Made by a program: the position numbers and the translations under genes
In this document: positions 2,776-24,540 of the stretch, one piece after another
Layout of the letters: the number at the start of each line of letters is the position of its first letter
Position numbering within the stretch: position 1 is the first letter of the stretch
The notes under the pieces: model-generated
The model's database searches: none
Told to the model about the DNA's origin: nothing
Seen by the model: only the letters and a program-made list of their open reading frames with translations
Assembly: GCA_015068345.1 (NCBI GenBank)
Contig: SVKS01000012.1
Span: forward strand, 1 to 33,751
DNA: 33,751 nucleotides
Direction of reading: 5' to 3'
Source of the DNA: Oscillospiraceae bacterium
GTDB lineage: Bacteria; Bacillota; Clostridia; Oscillospirales; QAMX01

Positions 2776-4722
2776 TTATTCCTGGTACGCACCGCGTTTG
2801 AATAGAATCCATTTGGATCGATCTCTGGGATCTACTCCCCGATGGGGTGTAGTCTTACCAAGCTCCATGGGACAGTCCCGCCACCCCTCCAGCTCGCTTC
2901 GAAAGATTCCCCTGCCGCCCGTCAGGGAGGCCAGGCGAATGGGATAATCCATGGAGGTTGCCGCAGGAACCGATGCATCCACCGTCATAATTCCCCGATT
3001 GACTACAGGTGTATCAAATTCACCCCGCATTTGGGTAATATCTCCCAGAATCCTTCCCATATACTCTTCTCCGGCGGAAATCCGGATCCGAAGATAGGGT
3101 TCCAGAAGGGTCATACCGGTGTTGGTAAAGCCATTCATAACCGCCATAGGAGTGGCCACAAAGAAATCCAAGGGATGAGTGTGGATGGTATGATGTCCCC
3201 CACCCACCAGGGTAGCCTTAAAATCGGTTGCTTCCCAGCCATAGATGCCCTGGGAGAGGCTTTCGAAAAAGGAGCGGCGAATATGCTCCTGGTATTTATA
3301 AAAAAGTTGATTATGGGGTACCCGACCCGGATCATATACCACACCGCTTCCCCGGGGCAACGGTTCAAACAGGAACTCCACAATGGCCCAACATGGCTTC
3401 GGCATGAGATAATCCGCATAAGCCCGGCCCGCTTTCGCAGGCGTTTCCTTGTAGATAACCGAAGGCTCCGAAAAGCTGGTTTCTATTTGATAACGATCAA
3501 GAATCAGTTGTCCCAATATTTCCAGTTCGATCTTACCGGTGATATTGATGACGATTTCCCGTTCATTTTTTTCCCATTTTACTCCCAGCAAAGGATCCTC
3601 CGCTTCCAGCTCGGACAGAGCCGCCACCAGATTCGTAAGCTTTGCGTCATCTTTGGGCATCACCTTGACCGTCAGGAAAGGAGGCTGAAATTCTGCCCGA
3701 TTCCGCTTTGGTTTTTCACCAAACCAATCGTAGACCCGGGCTTCGGTCAGACCGCAAAGAGCTGCCACATCCCCAGCCCCCACCCTACCTACGTCGATCA
3801 TCTTTTGGCCGTTGGATTTTCGAACTTGGGAGATTTTTCCATCGCTTCTTGCCTCTTCCCCATCCAATACCGGGTAAGCCACCGTGTCCCGGGATTTCAG
3901 TTCTCCGGAAAAGAGCCTCACGTGGGCAATACGTCCCATTGTTTTATCATGTTCCACACGGTACACCAAAGCCGACAACGGGTCGTTTTTTGCCTCTGCT
4001 TTGGGAAGATATTTCAGAATCGCATTCAGCACATTTTCGGTCCCAAGACCGGAAATAGCGCTTCCAACAACCACAGGGATCACCTTTCCGTGAAGCACCG
4101 CATCCCGGAACCAAATCTCGGTTTCCGACTCTCCTGCATTCCCCTCCAGATATGCCTCCGCCGCTTCGTCCGAGTCATCGGCCGCCGCTTCCAGCTTTCG
4201 CTCCGTCAAGCCATCCGGGATACGAATTTCCGCACTCCTGCTCCCCTCCCCAACCGGTTCGGAAAGGAACACAGGAGTAACCCCAAACTGCTCCCGAAGG
4301 GCATTCGCGATTTCCTGACAATCGGAACCGGCCCGATCAATCTTGTTGATAAACACGACCACCGGCAGATTCATCTTTCGAAGGCATCGCCATATCGTTT
4401 CGGTATGGGATTGGATTCCCTCCACGGCAGAAATAACAAGCACCGCGCCATCCACCGCCGCAAGACTTCGTTCCACCTCGCCGGAAAAGTCCACGTGCCC
4501 CGGCGTATCGATCAGATTCAGTTCTTCGCCTTTCCAGGAAAATGAGGTTTGAGACGCCCGGACCGAAATTCCTCTGCGTTTTTCCACTTCCAGGTAATCA
4601 CTCTGGGCAGTTCCATCATCCACTCGTCCCAGGGTACGTATTGTCCCCGCATGGTAAAGAATCGATTCTGTCAGGGTAGTCTTGCCCGCATCCACGTGGG
4701 CCAGTATGGCAAAATTGATCAT
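2776..4722 (-). CDS. Tet(M)/Tet(O)-like translational GTPase (ribosomal protection family)
   Basis: A 648-residue EF-G-like GTPase, close to the 639 residues of Tet(M). From the ATG at 4722 the GTPase motifs are AHVDAGKTT (8-16), DTPGH (72-76) and NKID (126-129), followed by EF-G-like domains II-V and the family-specific C-terminal region. An upstream in-frame ATG (4794) lies inside the preceding terminator, so 4722 is preferred; AAGGAAGG serves as RBS. The switch I region (SDYLEVEKRRGISV) is closer to RF3 and the divergent clostridial members than to classical Tet(M). In domain IV the loop after GIYGWEATDFK reads HHTIHTHPLDF where Tet(M) has the tyrosine-containing YYSPVSTPADF that dislodges tetracycline. 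It may therefore be a housekeeping ribosome-rescue or translocation factor instead of a resistance gene. It is monocistronic, with its own promoter and terminators on both sides. Confidence 0.85.
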   Translation of the reverse strand: MINFAILAHVDAGKTTLTESILYHAGTIRTLGRVDDGTAQSDYLEVEKRRGISVRASQTSFSWKGEELNLIDTPGHVDFSGEVERSLAAVDGAVLVISAVEGIQSHTETIWRCLRKMNLPVVVFINKIDRAGSDCQEIANALREQFGVTPVFLSEPVGEGSRSAEIRIPDGLTERKLEAAADDSDEAAEAYLEGNAGESETEIWFRDAVLHGKVIPVVVGSAISGLGTENVLNAILKYLPKAEAKNDPLSALVYRVEHDKTMGRIAHVRLFSGELKSRDTVAYPVLDGEEARSDGKISQVRKSNGQKMIDVGRVGAGDVAALCGLTEARVYDWFGEKPKRNRAEFQPPFLTVKVMPKDDAKLTNLVAALSELEAEDPLLGVKWEKNEREIVINITGKIELEILGQLILDRYQIETSFSEPSVIYKETPAKAGRAYADYLMPKPCWAIVEFLFEPLPRGSGVVYDPGRVPHNQLFYKYQEHIRRSFFESLSQGIYGWEATDFKATLVGGGHHTIHTHPLDFFVATPMAVMNGFTNTGMTLLEPYLRIRISAGEEYMGRILGDITQMRGEFDTPVVNRGIMTVDASVPAATSMDYPIRLASLTGGRGIFRSELEGWRDCPMELGKTTPHRGVDPRDRSKWILFKRGAYQE

Positions 4723-4750
4723 GGGTGTTCCTTCCTTGGTTTTTTCTTCT

Positions 4751-4779
4751 ATTGTACCACATTTCTGCATTCTTGTAAA
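4751..4779 (-). promoter_or_regulatory. Sigma-A promoter of the Tet-like GTPase gene
   Basis: TTTACA (4779..4774), 17-bp spacer and TACAAT (4756..4751) on the minus strand, each 5/6 to consensus. The transcript leader would be only about 20-25 bases, so the leader-peptide attenuation known upstream of tet(M) is absent. Confidence 0.75.
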
Positions 4780-4783
4780 ACAG

Positions 4784-4822
4784 AAAGGTTCCATTCCGGA
4801 ACTTTCCCGGAATGGAACCTTT
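4784..4822 (-). terminator. Intrinsic terminator after the GH2/GH109-like/DUF4015 operon
   Basis: A 16-bp perfect stem, AAAGGTTCCATTCCGG (4784-4799) with its complement (4807-4822), seven-base loop, followed on the minus strand by TTTCTGTTTT. It lies just after the stop at 4830. Confidence 0.88.
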
Positions 4823-11751: not shown

Positions 11752-14103
11752 TCAACTTTGTTCCGCAAGGTAGATGGATATACGGTTTTGCACATACTCG
11801 GCGGCTTGTTTGGCGGTACTGCTTCCGGAAAAGTATCGTCCCGCTTCCTCGTACATGACGTCAAACACATCGTTACGGAAATACTGAAAATGGTCACCCC
11901 TGCGGATCACTTCCCAAGTTTTGTCGTACTGTTCCTGCCCACATCCCCGGTTGTGTGCCTCCAGCATTTCTCTCAGCACTTCCAGGTCTTCGGTGATTTC
12001 GATCTCCCCGTCAATGTTTCGTTTCAAAAACCGATCGGTTTCATCCCGGTTGACCGAAAGCGGATAGAGGGAAACGTTCAGGTCTTTGGACGGGAACTCT
12101 TCTATAATGTTTTCCAAAAAGTGCCACTTCAGAAATTCTCCCGAAGCTTCCCGGCTTGCCTTGTCATCCACTACTGCGAAAAACTCTGGCACGTAGATCT
12201 CAAACCCATCATAAACCGAGGAGGGAATGGGGTAAATAACCCAAACCCATTGCGTAACTCCCACTTCCGAGGCAGGTAAGCTTATCAGATATTCCTTCGA
12301 TTCTTCCACATTCAGGAACTCATTGTTCGGCATGGAATCTTGAAGAGGAATATTCAAACTGTACATAGAATAGGGCTGGGCGGTGTACTGATCCACCTCT
12401 TCCTGGGTGCTTCCCTTGTTGCAGAATTCCAGCAGGGCTTCGAAGGTCCCATCATCGAAGTGACAGGTGTTGGTTTCCCAATTGATCCACTCGTCCAGAT
12501 CCTGGCCGAAGGTGGTAAACAACATCCGTTTGGTCAACGGCTCAAAATAATCGGGAACCTTTTCCGAAAGATAATCGTAGTATTCCAACCGATTCTCAAA
12601 GGTTACCCCTTCTTCCATATACCGGGCGTCGGTGGATTCTCCTCGAATCCAGAAGCTTCTGGGCAGATAATAGCAGACTCCGTCCAGTCGGGTGGCATCC
12701 ACAATGTTTTCGACCAGTACGTCCTTTTCAAATAGCTCCGGAGCCACCTCTTCCAAAGGTGCCAGAATGTCCTGCTTCACGTAGTTTTTCAGCATAAACT
12801 GATCCCGGGAGATCACCATGGAGATTTCTCCCGAAAGAAGAGCCAGGTTTAGGTCGGTTTGATCATCAAATTCCTTCACCACAAAAGCATAGTTTTCCGA
12901 AACCCGATTGAATTTGGAGAAGGTCAGGGTCAGTTCACTAACATCCCCATACAGGTTGATAACCCCGGCGGTAAAAACCTGTTTTTGCTCTCCGGTAGCA
13001 ACCTCCGCCCCGGAAAGTTCGATCAAAATTCCGTCGGTTGCCACTAAAATGCGTCCATCCGAAAGGGCACGTACTGCCCGCACGTGGGAGGATTCGTTCA
13101 CCCCAAAAAAGATCAAATCGGCAATTCGCTTGCTTTCCTTCCCATCGGTGCGCCATAGCTCACTTCCACACATGAAGTAACCATATTTACCGTCGCTGAA
13201 AGCGCCGCCAGTGGCTTTTCCGTCAATTTTCTTTCCTTCCAGAGGAAGCTCAGTCATTTCGGGGGACAGGGGTACCAGCCGGGTTTCCTCCCAAAGGGTA
13301 TCCACCACCTGTTCACTCCGATCGTTCTCCCACACGTGCACCAGTGCATAGGGGATTCCGTCAATGCCGATCAGCCCGCAATACTGATATTCCGGAGCGC
13401 CGGGACGCCACGTTGGTTGTTCTACAAAGTGGTCATTGATGTAGAGTTGCCGCCAACCGTCAATGTAGTAATGGACACCGGCATAGATATTCCCATCCTG
13501 TTCCATTAATTGAGCACTAGCACCATAATTGGCCAATATCCATCCATTGCCATCAAGCCATTCTTCCGGAACAACCTTGTTTTCCAATCGTTCACCATTC
13601 CTATAGAAAAAATATTCAACACACCAATATACAGGTTCTTCCTTTGCTTCCACAAGAAAAGGTTCTGCACCAAAAGCAAGATCAACCGAAGAATTATAAT
13701 ATACCGAAGCCTCATACGGAGAAATCGTTTTCTGCCGTTTTTCTGTATTCTCTACGAAATCCATGTCGTAATATCGATGTTCTGTTATATAAGGAGTTCC
13801 CGCCACACCTGAAACAATGATTCCGCCTATTTCCCAATTTTCTACTCCGATGGTGGCACGGAGCTCGCCATCCACTTCAATGACATCGAGAATGGTTTCG
13901 TTTTCGGCAAGACCAAGGTTGATAATGTTACCGACGTAGTTGTTGTAAGTAGATACCCTGCTTTGAAGTTCCTTATTCTCCTCGTAAGATTTTCCCATAC
14001 ACGAAGTAAGAAACAAGCAAAGAAAAAGGTTCAAACATACCAGTGTTACAATTATGCCTTTTTTTGATGCACACAACATTCTTATATTTTTTCGATATGC
14101 CAT
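11752..14103 (-). CDS. Large lipoprotein with ABC solute-binding-like C-terminal half
   Basis: A 783-residue lipoprotein; the signal sequence ends in the lipobox LTSC with Cys35. Residues of roughly 60-380 form a beta-rich, propeller-like region with SDGKYGYF and LWRTDGK repeats. The C-terminal half resembles family 1 extracellular solute-binding proteins (LALLSGEISMVISRDQF, DILAPLEEV), ending in the motif VQNRISIYLAEQS. Whole-length relatives lie at 20503-22467 and 22564-24540. No permease or ATPase gene is adjacent, so it may bind a ligand for a distant transporter or act as a receptor. The 5' third (about 13500-14103) is visibly more AT-rich than the rest, suggesting a mosaic gene. RBS is weak (GGCGAG). 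It converges with spoIVA on a shared terminator. Confidence 0.7.
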   Translation of the reverse strand: MAYRKNIRMLCASKKGIIVTLVCLNLFLCLFLTSCMGKSYEENKELQSRVSTYNNYVGNIINLGLAENETILDVIEVDGELRATIGVENWEIGGIIVSGVAGTPYITEHRYYDMDFVENTEKRQKTISPYEASVYYNSSVDLAFGAEPFLVEAKEEPVYWCVEYFFYRNGERLENKVVPEEWLDGNGWILANYGASAQLMEQDGNIYAGVHYYIDGWRQLYINDHFVEQPTWRPGAPEYQYCGLIGIDGIPYALVHVWENDRSEQVVDTLWEETRLVPLSPEMTELPLEGKKIDGKATGGAFSDGKYGYFMCGSELWRTDGKESKRIADLIFFGVNESSHVRAVRALSDGRILVATDGILIELSGAEVATGEQKQVFTAGVINLYGDVSELTLTFSKFNRVSENYAFVVKEFDDQTDLNLALLSGEISMVISRDQFMLKNYVKQDILAPLEEVAPELFEKDVLVENIVDATRLDGVCYYLPRSFWIRGESTDARYMEEGVTFENRLEYYDYLSEKVPDYFEPLTKRMLFTTFGQDLDEWINWETNTCHFDDGTFEALLEFCNKGSTQEEVDQYTAQPYSMYSLNIPLQDSMPNNEFLNVEESKEYLISLPASEVGVTQWVWVIYPIPSSVYDGFEIYVPEFFAVVDDKASREASGEFLKWHFLENIIEEFPSKDLNVSLYPLSVNRDETDRFLKRNIDGEIEITEDLEVLREMLEAHNRGCGQEQYDKTWEVIRRGDHFQYFRNDVFDVMYEEAGRYFSGSSTAKQAAEYVQNRISIYLAEQS

Positions 14104-14159
14104 ATCATTACTCGCCGACTATGATGTAACATTTACGGAAATACCATGTACATAGTCCG

Positions 14160-14190
14160 TCTCCCTGTCTTGACAAACAAGTCAGGGAGA
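14160..14190 (-). repeat. Strong hairpin in the leader of the large lipoprotein gene
   Basis: TCTCCCTGTCTTG (14160-14172) pairs with CAAGTCAGGGAGA (14178-14190), 12 of 13 positions, loop of five. No U tract follows, so it is not a standard terminator for the SH3 gene. It lies downstream of the putative promoter at 14216-14244, so it would sit in the 5' leader of the lipoprotein mRNA, as stabiliser or regulatory site. Confidence 0.6.
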
Positions 14191-14215
14191 TGGAACTATA
14201 TACTTCCGTTTACTT

Positions 14216-14244
14216 TTTATATCCAGTTGCTCTTTTATGATCAA
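14216..14244 (-). promoter_or_regulatory. Candidate promoter of the large lipoprotein gene
   Basis: TTGATC (14244..14239), 17-bp spacer and TATAAA (14221..14216) on the minus strand; 4/6 and 5/6 to consensus. It would give a leader of roughly 105 bases that includes the hairpin at 14160-14190. Confidence 0.5.
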
Positions 14245-14256
14245 CCGGATGTATTA

Positions 14257-14592
14257 CTAAAAGAAATATGCGTCCACATGAGTTTTCAGAAGATAACCGT
14301 TATACGCTCTTCCATTAACGGTCACATCCACATGATAAAAAGATCCGGTTATGTCAAGGATTTTTACCGGTGTATTCAAAGGAACATTCCCATTAAATAC
14401 ATATCCGCTACTCGGAGACGCAGAGTTATATAGGTAGGTTCTTGTTGAGCATACCTCTCCTGTTCCGATATAATTTGCTCTGACGGTAGCCTCCGCTTCC
14501 GGAACTTCGGCAAAACTAAAAACAGAGCACAGGCTCAGTACCAGCACCAGGACGCAAACAAGCGACAGGGTACGGTAAAAACGTGTTTTCAT
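14257..14592 (-). CDS. Small secreted protein with bacterial SH3-like domain
   Basis: A 111-residue exported protein. The N-terminus is a typical signal peptide (MKTRFYRTLSLVCVLVLVLS, cleavage likely after SVFSFA near residue 28). The mature part has the pattern of a bacterial SH3 domain: YLYNSASPSSGYV (the usual LNVRSGPSTSYxV position), GNVPLNTPVKILD, SFYHVDVTVNGRAYNGYLLKTHV. Such domains bind cell-wall peptides or proteins outside the membrane. With only one domain and no catalytic partner, its role is unknown; adhesin-like wall binding is an inference. RBS GAGG is at 14601-14598. Its most notable feature is the long, highly structured leader upstream. Confidence 0.75.
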   Translation of the reverse strand: MKTRFYRTLSLVCVLVLVLSLCSVFSFAEVPEAEATVRANYIGTGEVCSTRTYLYNSASPSSGYVFNGNVPLNTPVKILDITGSFYHVDVTVNGRAYNGYLLKTHVDAYFF

Positions 14593-14870
14593 ATAAACCT
14601 CGTTTCTTTGTGACGGCAGAAACGGCAGGTCCTTTGCCCTTACCGAAGTGTTTCTGCCGCTTCCCTTCGGTAAGGACGCATCATGGCTTCAACCAATGGC
14701 GTCATTCCCTTCTTTCTGGTGTTTCCTTGGTTGATCTGAATTTCTTCCGATCTTCTTTCGGGAAACACCGTTTGCTTAATTTCATCCGCCGGACACCCGG
14801 CGGTCAATCAGCATCCTTTTGTGAAACTGCCCCATGCCCTTTTCCGGACGTTTGGGTGCAAGACTCTCCG
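14593..14870 (-). ncRNA. Highly structured leader RNA with H-type pseudoknot and kissing helix
   Basis: No gene fits this 412-bp gap (14593-15004). A promoter at 14876-14904 would start RNA near 14870. In RNA order: hairpin CCGCCGG/CCGGCGG (14803-14797 with 14792-14786); GGTGTTTCC (14769-14761) with GGAAACACC (14726-14718); GACGC (14703-14699) with GCGTC (14679-14675); and TCAACCAA in the loop of the second (14734-14727) complementary to TTGGTTGA in the loop of the third (14696-14689). Then CCTTACCGAAG (14675-14665) with CTTCGGTAAGG (14648-14638), interleaved with CGGCAGAAAC (14659-14650) and GTTTCTGCCG (14623-14614). This is an H-type pseudoknot with loops of 5, 1 and 14 bases, good geometry in this orientation but poor in the reverse. 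It could be a riboswitch-like leader or a separate RNA. I do not recognise a known class. Confidence 0.65.
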
Positions 14871-14875
14871 TCTTC

Positions 14876-14904
14876 ATCGTAGCACACATTTTATATATTG
14901 TCAA
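14876..14904 (-). promoter_or_regulatory. Promoter of the structured leader/SH3 gene
   Basis: A perfect -35 TTGACA (14904..14899), 17-bp spacer and extended -10 TGCTACGAT (hexamer TACGAT at 14881..14876) on the minus strand. Start expected near 14870. Confidence 0.75.
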
Positions 14905-14918
14905 GTATATTTTACTGA

Positions 14919-14952
14919 TTGTGCAGTATTTTGTGCAGCTTGCAAGTTGCAA
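14919..14952. repeat. Short direct repeats upstream of the leader promoter
   Basis: TTGTGCAG occurs at 14919-14926 and 14931-14938 (12-bp period), followed by the palindrome CTTGCAAG (14939-14946) and TTGCAA (14947-14952). They lie 15-48 bp upstream of the -35 on the minus strand, the usual place for an activator site. Confidence 0.4.
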
Positions 14953-15004
14953 TTCTCTCTTCCACGAAAAGTGCGCCTTGCAGGACATTTTGTATTTGTT
15001 TCGG

Positions 15005-20502: not shown

Positions 20503-22467
20503 TCAGCTCTGTTCCGCAAGGAAGATGGATACCCGGCTCTGGATATGGGCTGCGGTGGTTTCGGCATCCTTGTCCCCGGCGAAATAAGGTGCTGTTTCCT
20601 CTTCAATAATGTTGAAAATATCCCGATAGAACGTGCCGGTTACGTGGTCTGCCCTTTCTGCGTATTGATAGACGTCCATATATACGCACTCTGCCATTCT
20701 TCTCGCTTCTTCCTCCGGATAGGAAGAGTTGGCAATAAATTCTTCCATCCACTTTTGCGTCAGCTCCTCATAAACATCCTTTCTAATGGTAATGCCATAG
20801 GAAACGTTTACTTTCTCTGCGTGTTTTCTTTGGTATTCCGTCGAAAGGATCCAGCGGATAAATACTTCTGCCAATCCTTTTTCTTTACTTGAAGCCAATA
20901 CTGCAAAATATTCTTCTGCATCAAAAGCAAATCCTGATGTTTTTTGTGTTGGAAGGGGAATCAATGAACCCTCTACACTGTATTTGCTGAATGGCTTTCC
21001 CGTACCATTTATTTCATATTGCATATACAAGTTGTCACTTATGGCTCTATTGATTTCATGATAGGGTGAAAACAGTGAAGGATCATCGGCTTTGTTTGCT
21101 TGCATCTCGTCCTTATCTGCGGCATATCTGCTCACAAATGCCAGCAGCTCCAAAAAACTTTCGGTCTCAAAGCTACAGCTTCCCTGTTCCAGATTCACCC
21201 ATTCATCGATTCCATTCATGAAGAAGTAGCGTATAACAAACTCTCTGGTACTTCTCCGGTAAAAACTCTGATCCTCCAGAGTATCTAACACTTGGATCAG
21301 TGCAGATATCGATTGTGGTTCTCCCATCTCTTCAACCACCGATTTCGGTAGTATCATACCAATGATCCTAAAGGAAGGAAATATCAGGTAGGTTTTTCCG
21401 CTGATTTCCAATGCCTTAACGGCATTTTCAAACAGAGCACCAGATTCCAATACATCGCCGATCAGGTCGTCCATAGGAACCAAATATCCCTGTTTGGCAA
21501 ATTTCATCAATGCTTCCCCATTGCCCCCCGCAATCATATCCACCTCCCCGGACAGAACCGCAAGATTCAGCTGCACCTGATTCTGAAATTCCTTGATGAT
21601 AATCTTGCTTTCAGAATTCAAATTAAATTCTGCAATAAGCTCCTTCAAATCGGGTTGCGCTTCAAAAGCTCCCATGATTAACGAAGAACCTTTTTCCGAT
21701 TGCGTTTCTGCTTCCCCCTGTTCCAATACAATCACCATTTTTTCGGCTACCAGCAGAATGGTGTCTCCCACTACCGCAAAGGATTTCAAGTTGTCTACAC
21801 CATATTGACTTAGATGTCCAAGTTCTTGTATAACCTCCCCATCGGTCCGGCACAGCATCCCCGCTTTCACCCAGTAATTCCAGGTTCCGTCATATCCAAC
21901 AGGCGCAATATCCGCATTTATTTCATTGACAACGATTGGCTTCCCAAGCATTCTCCCAAGTGGAAATAACATAAACTCCTGCGATACCGGAATGTCTATA
22001 TCGACACTGTCATATACAATCTTGATTGCCGCAAGATATGGCACCTCTTCCCACACCCAAAATCCAAGTGGAAAATAACAGCCATTATCTTCCGGTAACT
22101 CAATCTCTTCTTCATCACATAATAGGCGATCATTCAAGAGTACATATTCTTCATCTTCCAACTGAATCGAGTAAGAAAAATAGACTTCTTCCGGCACAAT
22201 CTTTCCTTCTTCAGAATGGTACAGATTCAGAATTGACTGTTTTCCATACTCATCTATCATAAGAACATCTTCCGAACACGTGATTCGTTTAAGTCCATTT
22301 TCGCTTTCGAACACGCTACGAGAATTCATCTCGACAGTTTCTGTTTCCATTGGTAGTTCAATCATGTCCTTTCGGGAACGCACTTCTTGATAATCACAAG
22401 AAACAATCAATCCTGCGAACAGTATCACAATAATTACTAAAGATATGATTATCCTGTTACTTTTCAT
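20503..22467 (-). CDS. Solute-binding-like lipoprotein, repeat-flanked cassette
   Basis: A 654-residue lipoprotein from ATG 22467 (RBS GGAGAA); the lipobox LIVSC gives Cys24. The N-terminal 270 residues are beta-rich, including LGFWVWEEVPYLAAIKIVYD and LCRTDGEVIQELG. The C-terminal half resembles ABC solute-binding proteins (LNLAVLSGEVDMIAGGNGEALMKFAKQGYL), ending IQSRVSIFLAEQS. It is related over its full length to the neighbour at 22564-24540, but the DNA is markedly more AT-rich, while its last codons are nearly identical in DNA, inside the 146-bp repeat. This points to a diverged or transferred paralogue homogenised at the 3' end by recombination. Own promoter and terminator. Ligand unknown; no transporter subunits nearby. 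Confidence 0.75.
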   Translation of the reverse strand: MKSNRIIISLVIIVILFAGLIVSCDYQEVRSRKDMIELPMETETVEMNSRSVFESENGLKRITCSEDVLMIDEYGKQSILNLYHSEEGKIVPEEVYFSYSIQLEDEEYVLLNDRLLCDEEEIELPEDNGCYFPLGFWVWEEVPYLAAIKIVYDSVDIDIPVSQEFMLFPLGRMLGKPIVVNEINADIAPVGYDGTWNYWVKAGMLCRTDGEVIQELGHLSQYGVDNLKSFAVVGDTILLVAEKMVIVLEQGEAETQSEKGSSLIMGAFEAQPDLKELIAEFNLNSESKIIIKEFQNQVQLNLAVLSGEVDMIAGGNGEALMKFAKQGYLVPMDDLIGDVLESGALFENAVKALEISGKTYLIFPSFRIIGMILPKSVVEEMGEPQSISALIQVLDTLEDQSFYRRSTREFVIRYFFMNGIDEWVNLEQGSCSFETESFLELLAFVSRYAADKDEMQANKADDPSLFSPYHEINRAISDNLYMQYEINGTGKPFSKYSVEGSLIPLPTQKTSGFAFDAEEYFAVLASSKEKGLAEVFIRWILSTEYQRKHAEKVNVSYGITIRKDVYEELTQKWMEEFIANSSYPEEEARRMAECVYMDVYQYAERADHVTGTFYRDIFNIIEEETAPYFAGDKDAETTAAHIQSRVSIFLAEQS

Positions 22468-22501
22468 CTTGTCTTCTCCGATATGTATATCCGTTTTTTC
22501 T

Positions 22502-22510
22502 ATCATATCA
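22502..22510 (-). promoter_or_regulatory. Extended -10 promoter candidate for lipoprotein gene 20503-22467
   Basis: TGATATGAT on the minus strand (hexamer TATGAT at 22507..22502), 35 bases before the start codon at 22467; identical to the element before the URO-D-led operon because both lie in the 146-bp repeat. Confidence 0.45.
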
Positions 22511-22530
22511 CAAACCAATAGAAAAGAAAA

Positions 22531-22563: not shown

Positions 22564-24540
22564 TCAGCTCTGTTCCGCAAGGAAGATGGATACCCGGCTC
22601 TGGATATGGGCTGCGGTGGTTTCGGCATCCTTGTCCCCGGCGAAAAATACCGCCGCTTCCTCCTGGACAATGTTATATATATCGTAATAGAAGCTGCCGC
22701 TCAGGTGGTCAGCCTGGTCCAACACCGCCAGCGTGTCGAAATAACCCTGGCGGCGTTCCTCCTCGCTGATTCCGTAATAGATGCCCTCTTTGGGCTTCAA
22801 CCACTCTTCAATGCAGTTTTCCACCACGTCCCGTCGAACGGGGATGCCAAACCCTTCGTAGGGTGCACGGTCGTTGTACTCCGCCTGCACCTCCTCCGAA
22901 AGCATCCATTCCAGAAAATCGGTAATACTCCCCTTCGCGTCACTGCTTGCCAGCACCCCAAAGAGATTTCGGGGTTTGATGGGATACCCTTCCCCGGGCT
23001 GGGTAGGTGACGGAAACAGAACCCCTTCGGTTCCGTATTTATAGGTGGCGGTTTCACTTTTACCATCGTTGTAGAAAATATGATTTACATCCTGAATCAG
23101 CGAAAACATGGTAATCTGACGGAAGGGGACAAATATGGCCTTGTCAGGTGCGTTGTTGGCAAACACCTCGTCCTGATCTTTGGCATAGTTCTGCAGCAGC
23201 TTCAGAAGGTCCACAAAGCTATCCTCTTCAAAATTACAGGTTCCCTTTTCCAGGTCCACCCAGGCACTCATGCCATTGAAAATGAAATTGTTCATGGCGA
23301 TTTCCCTGGTATGTTGCTTATAGAAATTTTTGCTGTTCAGCCCCTCCAAAACGTCAATGAGCTCTGCTACGGTTTCGATTTTCCCCACCTTATCCATGAC
23401 CGGCTTGGGCAAAATCATGCCCCCACTTTCAAACATGGGACAGATGAGGGTGACCTTACCATCCAGCCGAAGGGCATCCAACACCCCATCGAAGAAACCG
23501 CCCGAATTCAGCAAATCTCCAATCAGGTCCTCCACCGGAATCAAATACCCCTGCTTGGCCATGTGGATCAGGGAATCCCCGGCGAAGCTCACCACCATAT
23601 CCACCTCCCCCGAAAGCACCGCAAGATTCAGGGAGGTTTGGCTATCAAAATACTTCACTTCGATTTTGTTTTTCGAGGAAAGATTATACTGGGTGATCAT
23701 GTTTTCGAAAATGTGGTCGGCCCCAAAGGCGCCCACCACCACCGTTCCGGTGCCTGCTTCGGGCTTTGAGACCGATTCGGTTTCCTCACTCCCCGCAAGC
23801 AGGATCAGCATATCCCCGGTGAGCACCAGAAGATCCTTTCCCACCGGCAAAAGATCCCGGATTTCCACCGACCGAATACCGTAACCCGCGAGATTCCCAA
23901 GAGTTTCCAGGGCTTTCCCATCGGTTCTGAAAAGATTCCCATCCTGAACGTAATAATTCCATCCCTCCCGGTGGCAGGTAATGCTGCCTCCAGGCAGAAT
24001 CTCCTCCACCCAAACCGGAGTTCCCAGCGCTTCCCCCAGAGGGTAGAGAAGCAGATCGTTTTCAAGGACCACTTCAATCTCCACCGAATCGTACACCCGG
24101 CGAAGGACGGCAAGATAATCGGCCTCCTCTATTTTCCAGAAGCCCATGGGGGTATAGTATGCGTCATCCGGCAGAGTAACCGGTTTGCTATTATGTTGTA
24201 CCTCTCCCGTTTCGGTGATGCTCCAGGCGTTTTCCCCAACCACCACCGACTTGGAGTCAGGCCCGGTTTCGCTTACTTCAAATGCTCCGGGTTCATAGCC
24301 TTCCCCCAGAAGGGCTCTCTGCCCATCCCCATAGAGCCAGACTTCCGCCCCGGTTTTCTCCAATCCAATGAGCGGCTCCTGGCTCCGGTAAACCAGGCGG
24401 GAAGTGTAGCTTGTCCCCTGGTCGGCCTGGGGCAAGGACAAGACGTCCTTGCCATCCTCTTCTTCCCCACTGCATCCGGCAAACAGGCTCAGGAAAAGAA
24501 GCACCACCAATATATAAGCGGTTATTCTCGTTTTTTTCAT
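22564..24540 (-). CDS. Solute-binding-like lipoprotein with N-terminal beta domain
   Basis: A 658-residue lipoprotein with lipobox LFAGC (Cys23). Residues about 40-260 form the beta-rich domain shared with the neighbour (MGFWKIEEADYLAVLRRVYD, LFRTDGKALETLG). From about 270 onward comes the solute-binding-like part (FENMITQYNLSSKNKIEVKYFD, LNLAVLSGEVDMVVSFAGDSLIHMAKQGYL), ending IQSRVSIFLAEQS. RBS AAGGAGG. It begins 12 bp after the stop of the lipoprotein gene at 24553, so the two form an operon. The joint presence of a classical binding protein and this two-domain form suggests they sense or deliver the same ligand. No permease or ATPase is encoded here. Confidence 0.78.
   Translation of the reverse strand: MKKTRITAYILVVLLFLSLFAGCSGEEEDGKDVLSLPQADQGTSYTSRLVYRSQEPLIGLEKTGAEVWLYGDGQRALLGEGYEPGAFEVSETGPDSKSVVVGENAWSITETGEVQHNSKPVTLPDDAYYTPMGFWKIEEADYLAVLRRVYDSVEIEVVLENDLLLYPLGEALGTPVWVEEILPGGSITCHREGWNYYVQDGNLFRTDGKALETLGNLAGYGIRSVEIRDLLPVGKDLLVLTGDMLILLAGSEETESVSKPEAGTGTVVVGAFGADHIFENMITQYNLSSKNKIEVKYFDSQTSLNLAVLSGEVDMVVSFAGDSLIHMAKQGYLIPVEDLIGDLLNSGGFFDGVLDALRLDGKVTLICPMFESGGMILPKPVMDKVGKIETVAELIDVLEGLNSKNFYKQHTREIAMNNFIFNGMSAWVDLEKGTCNFEEDSFVDLLKLLQNYAKDQDEVFANNAPDKAIFVPFRQITMFSLIQDVNHIFYNDGKSETATYKYGTEGVLFPSPTQPGEGYPIKPRNLFGVLASSDAKGSITDFLEWMLSEEVQAEYNDRAPYEGFGIPVRRDVVENCIEEWLKPKEGIYYGISEEERRQGYFDTLAVLDQADHLSGSFYYDIYNIVQEEAAVFFAGDKDAETTAAHIQSRVSIFLAEQS

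Follow-up and report, generated by a model that had tools for sequence, protein, structure and literature searches.

In this DNA, a gene for a small secreted SH3-like protein is preceded by a 5' leader that is a genuine structured RNA and has not been catalogued before. The leader contains one conserved pseudoknot, its known distribution is very narrow, and its function is inferred. It occupies about 277 nt of the minus strand (14593..14869) of the window, by which we mean the whole stretch of 33,751 nucleotides that was analysed. An earlier note had described this region as a structured minus-strand leader upstream of a secreted SH3-like gene, and the description is borne out by the helices, by the fold statistics and by conservation of the pseudoknot. 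We suggest, with moderate confidence, that the RNA is a cis-acting leader of the mRNA, and that its pseudoknot, which borders on the ribosome-binding site, most probably sets translation, message stability or both. In our judgement this reading is favoured because the promoter, the type of downstream gene and the spacing to the Shine-Dalgarno element are all conserved between copies.

Promoter and predicted topology of the leader RNA

A putative sigma-70-type promoter, TTGACA-17-TACGAT with an extended -10 element (TG), is present on the minus strand at 14876..14904, just outside the structure, as had been proposed from the sequence, and the same arrangement is repeated before the two homologues described below (L002 and L004). 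From the position of this promoter, the 5' end of the RNA is expected near 14869, which places the start codon of the secreted-protein gene, at 14592, about 277 nt downstream. By its consensus score alone the promoter is near chance, and the leader region has as many promoter-like sites as shuffles give; all three copies, however, have the 17-nt-spaced promoter in the same position, with -10 elements of TATGAT in L002 and TAGTAT in L004. The nested fold of the leader alone was computed at -100.9 kcal/mol (z = -5.15 against shuffles), and that of L004 was only mildly stable by the same comparison (z about -1.6 to -2).

The earlier note had drawn an 11-bp and a 10-bp helix as an H-type pseudoknot in the minus-strand RNA, and we found every segment of it, with loop sizes as claimed. 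Stem S1 pairs CCUUACCGAAG with CUUCGGUAAGG (14665-14675/14638-14648, 11 bp) and stem S2 pairs CGGCAGAAAC with GUUUCUGCCG (14650-14659/14614-14623, 10 bp), both perfectly, with a loop 1 (GGAAG) of 5 nt, a junction of 1 nt and a loop 3 of 14 nt. As judged from the sequences, the two helices are interleaved and their loops appear sterically feasible, both for the 11/10 bp of the window copy and for the 10/8 bp of L004, whose own sequence contains a perfect interleaved pair of that size that was reached by 0/200 shuffles. When the 283-nt leader was put through 2000 dinucleotide shuffles, interleaved pairs of at least 8/8 bp were observed 9 times, of at least 9/9 bp once, and of at least 10/10 bp in 0/2000. 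Interleaved pairs of at least 8/8 bp occur at only four places in the whole 33.7-kb window, two of which are in the leader, the other two being 8/9 and 8/8. The Shine-Dalgarno element GAGG, as read from the minus strand at 14598..14601, lies 12 nt after the end of S2, and the spacing is again 12 nt in L004, where the element is AGGAGG.

Directly upstream of the S1/S2 pseudoknot, the leader contains a second interleaved pair, of 9/8 bp. Stem P2 (GGUGUUUCC/GGAAACACC, 9 bp, minus strand, 14761-14769/14718-14726), which has an inner hairpin in its loop, encloses the octamer UCAACCAA (14727-14734), and the perfect complement of this octamer, UUGGUUGA (14689-14696), is located to the 3' side of P2, an arrangement that might allow loop-loop or interleaved pairing. 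The octamers had been proposed to be complementary loop sequences, and they are indeed perfect complements at the positions described, but 4/8 of the pairs fail in L004, the only complete homologue, and the loop-loop contact is therefore not supported. P2 itself retains its five outer pairs in the same alignment, with three of its four inner pairs lost.

Conservation of the pseudoknot in a second species

A DNA search of the genome's family detected matches to the leader at two places, both of them in G003, another genome of the genus. The first, L002, adjoins the same glutaminase-like gene and is the orthologous site; only the first 79 nt of the leader (79% identical) precede the end of its contig, and the promoter is kept. 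The second, L004, is a complete copy and belongs to another species of the genus (JAFYNU010000259.1, an uncultured Clostridia bacterium from the cecum of water buffalo). Its neighbour is not the glutaminase gene but a gene that by eye is radical-SAM-like, and the L004 leader directly precedes a gene for a related secreted protein with the same type of signal peptide.

Comparison of the window copy with L004 revealed two double compensatory changes in S1 (C-G to G-C and C-G to A-U), together with a wobble repair (U-G to C-G) and a change of A-U to G-U. One pair of S1 was broken, and the inner 8 bp of S2 showed no variation. Since only two complete copies exist, the covariation rests on these two compensatory pairs, and on this count, over two copies, the leader qualifies as a conserved structured RNA. 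That another species has preserved the pseudoknot through compensatory changes, in front of a related gene, strengthens the original proposal.

We considered whether the conservation might instead reflect a leader peptide that acts through ribosome arrest or attenuation. In each copy an open frame that ends in ...EAETLR* overlaps the pseudoknot; its internal indels are both of 3 nt, and its stop codon lies within the 3' strand of S1. Nevertheless, the differences between the copies fall 9/6/7 at codon positions 1/2/3, and 11 codons differ non-synonymously as opposed to 3 synonymously, so that there is no sign of selection on a protein; as read from the sequences, the frames also have neither a common start codon nor a convincing ribosome-binding site. 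For want of any codon-position bias we rejected a conserved upstream peptide, and we regard a peptide-based explanation as very improbable.

The RNA might also be, or might additionally give rise to, an independent trans-acting small RNA resembling the raiA-motif RNA ModT. The putative promoter of its own, the compact tertiary structure that is predicted and the copies at unrelated loci would all suit such a role. Against it, a search for an intrinsic terminator between the leader structure and the gene found none, and a start codon for the secreted SH3-like or related protein follows within 21-25 nt of both complete copies. A trans-acting role is highly unlikely in our estimation.

Distribution of the leader

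We built a covariance model (R1) from the two complete copies (window and L004) and applied it to 21 genomes of the family, 394 of the order and 391 of the class, and observed no further convincing member beyond the known copies. The other matches to R1 were weak, with per-genome E values between 5.8e-5 and 0.9. Of these, the order-level matches were inspected and the two class-level matches were aligned; none had the S1/S2 pseudoknot, and several were in coding DNA. A pattern scan of 84,980 GTDB genomes returned a sole real match, L051, which is L004 itself, and a pattern scan of IMG/VR found no member. A 36-nt DNA match in genome G006 (L003, E 1.3e-4) was judged to be due to chance and lies inside a gene for a helix-turn-helix-like protein. 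From these sequence searches the leader appears to be restricted to one genus, in which two species are known so far to carry it.

The downstream gene and its paralogues

The gene at 14257..14592 (minus strand) encodes a 111-aa secreted SH3-like protein with the signal peptide MKTRFYRTLSLVCVLVLVLSLCSVFSFA, which is clear by eye and common to relatives in the genus. The SH3-like assignment comes from an alignment of the family and from a match to SH3_3 (PF08239) of 14.5 bits (E 0.041), which is below the Pfam cut-off of 27; a paralogue, L039, matches the same model at 40.6 bits (E 2.9e-10). A single-sequence structure model of the 111-aa protein (pLDDT 51.6) was too poor to be used for the fold.

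Leaders of the SH3-like paralogues L028, L029, L031, L032 and L039 contained no interleaved helices beyond the level of shuffles. A GGGAAAC/GTTTCCC pseudoknot considered for the L032 leader was rejected, the pairing being better explained by a nested hairpin. The protein family does not need the pseudoknot, because paralogues within the genus have leaders that lack S1/S2. One further SH3-like paralogue in the same genome, L041 (contig C132 of genome G000, about 49534-49620, minus strand), has a transposase-looking frame directly upstream where a leader would be.

Two of these paralogues, L028 and L031, are preceded by TTGACA promoters and by structured leaders of 196-326 nt whose sequences differ (z of -2.6 for L028 and -3.5 for L031). 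To the 3' side of the SH3-like gene in the window, a long and very stable hairpin without a T tract is present at 14137-14213 (minus strand), possibly a 3' stabiliser or a terminator; the fold of 14100-14256 gave z = -5.93. TTGACA promoters and long leaders before paralogues and a very stable hairpin after the gene are what might be seen if the leader merely stabilised or insulated the mRNA of a highly expressed secreted protein, with no regulation. Such a role would not call for a perfect 21-bp pseudoknot with conserved loops, which exceeds the needs of a stability hairpin, and we consider it unlikely that the leader does only this.

Other features of the window

Neighbouring genes for solute-binding lipoproteins at 20503-22518 and 22564-24540 (minus strand) have identical C-termini (FAGDKDAETTAAHIQSRVSIFLAEQS), and the gene at 11752-14103 has a similar one (ISIYLAEQS). 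The common C-termini suggest, from sequence comparison, a recent duplication or gene conversion. A gene at 2776-4794 (minus strand) would encode a 672-aa GTPase that by eye looks like a ribosomal protection protein of the TetM/EF-G type.

Proposed mechanism

We propose that transcription would start near 14869 on the minus strand, and that the leader would fold into a 5' hairpin domain, the long stem P2, a connecting hairpin and the 3' H-type pseudoknot. If formed in the cell, the pseudoknot would end 12 nt before the Shine-Dalgarno element, and so on the upstream border of the ribosome-binding site, from where it could set ribosome loading on the secreted-protein message, the stability of that message, or both. 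Possibly, a regulator or a ligand tunes the pseudoknot.

One form of such tuning would be a new class of riboswitch, in which binding of a small molecule would stabilise the pseudoknot and so alter access to the Shine-Dalgarno element; the earlier note had called this much tertiary pairing typical of a riboswitch or a large structured RNA. The loops and junction of the pseudoknot are conserved to an unusual degree from one copy to the other, an 18-nt block (GCAGAAACACTTCGGTAA) being identical, and the window copy has an alternative 7-bp hairpin, CGUUUCU/AGAAACG, which would use the 3' strand of S2 and abut the Shine-Dalgarno element. This hairpin is not conserved, however; L004 has a Shine-Dalgarno hairpin of a different kind, in which S2 takes no part. 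In the models, the Shine-Dalgarno element was exposed to the same extent whether the pseudoknot was present or absent (0.49 vs 0.50; 0.63 vs 0.65), and a Shine-Dalgarno switch was rejected. Between the structure and the gene there is likewise no terminator. Most riboswitches occur across taxa and gene types, and this leader does not; nor does the function of the gene hint at a metabolite. A riboswitch is rather improbable. Similarly, there is only a slim chance that the leader represents a new ligand-sensing or self-contained class, with two tandem interleaved helix pairs, of recent origin in one genus of gut Clostridia, that controls a family of secreted cell-surface SH3-like proteins.

Structured leaders are normally discovered through their wide distribution. 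The present leader seemingly occurs in one genus only, yet compensatory change has preserved its long pseudoknot at two unrelated loci. Should the cis-acting leader work as we propose, it would exemplify a regulatory RNA that is young and lineage-specific, and would offer a lead on how small secreted SH3-like proteins are controlled in gut Clostridia.

Comparison with known RNA classes

The earlier note had recognised no known class in the RNA, and comparison with Rfam bears this out. No family of Rfam 15, including the riboswitches, ribozymes, ROOL, GOLLD and OLE, matched the window at gathering score, and a permissive Rfam scan near the leader returned sub-threshold chance matches only. The raiA motif (RF03072), which the earlier note had wished to see excluded along with an Rfam scan, gave no covariance-model match at E<=10 in 14560-14960 and none in 5 genomes of the genus, and is excluded as an identity for the leader.

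Among known RNAs, preQ1-II and SAM-II are translational riboswitches of the H-type pseudoknot kind. Like them, the leader has an H-type pseudoknot close to the Shine-Dalgarno element; in contrast to them, its helices are much longer (11 and 10 bp), its S2 excludes the Shine-Dalgarno element, and it is without an Rfam match. The raiA motif RNA, or ModT, is a Bacillota RNA of roughly 200 nt that contains pseudoknots and is transcribed from a sigma-A promoter of its own (PMC11706538). Pseudoknots, a predicted promoter of its own and a Bacillota host are features that the leader shares with this RNA, whereas it differs in having no terminator, in being joined to a gene and in lacking a match to RF03072. 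ROOL, GOLLD and OLE are large ornate bacterial RNAs with many tertiary contacts, ROOL being from rumen (PMC12286853); they are larger than the leader and standalone, and the leader has no Rfam match to them. Many tertiary contacts are predicted for the leader too.
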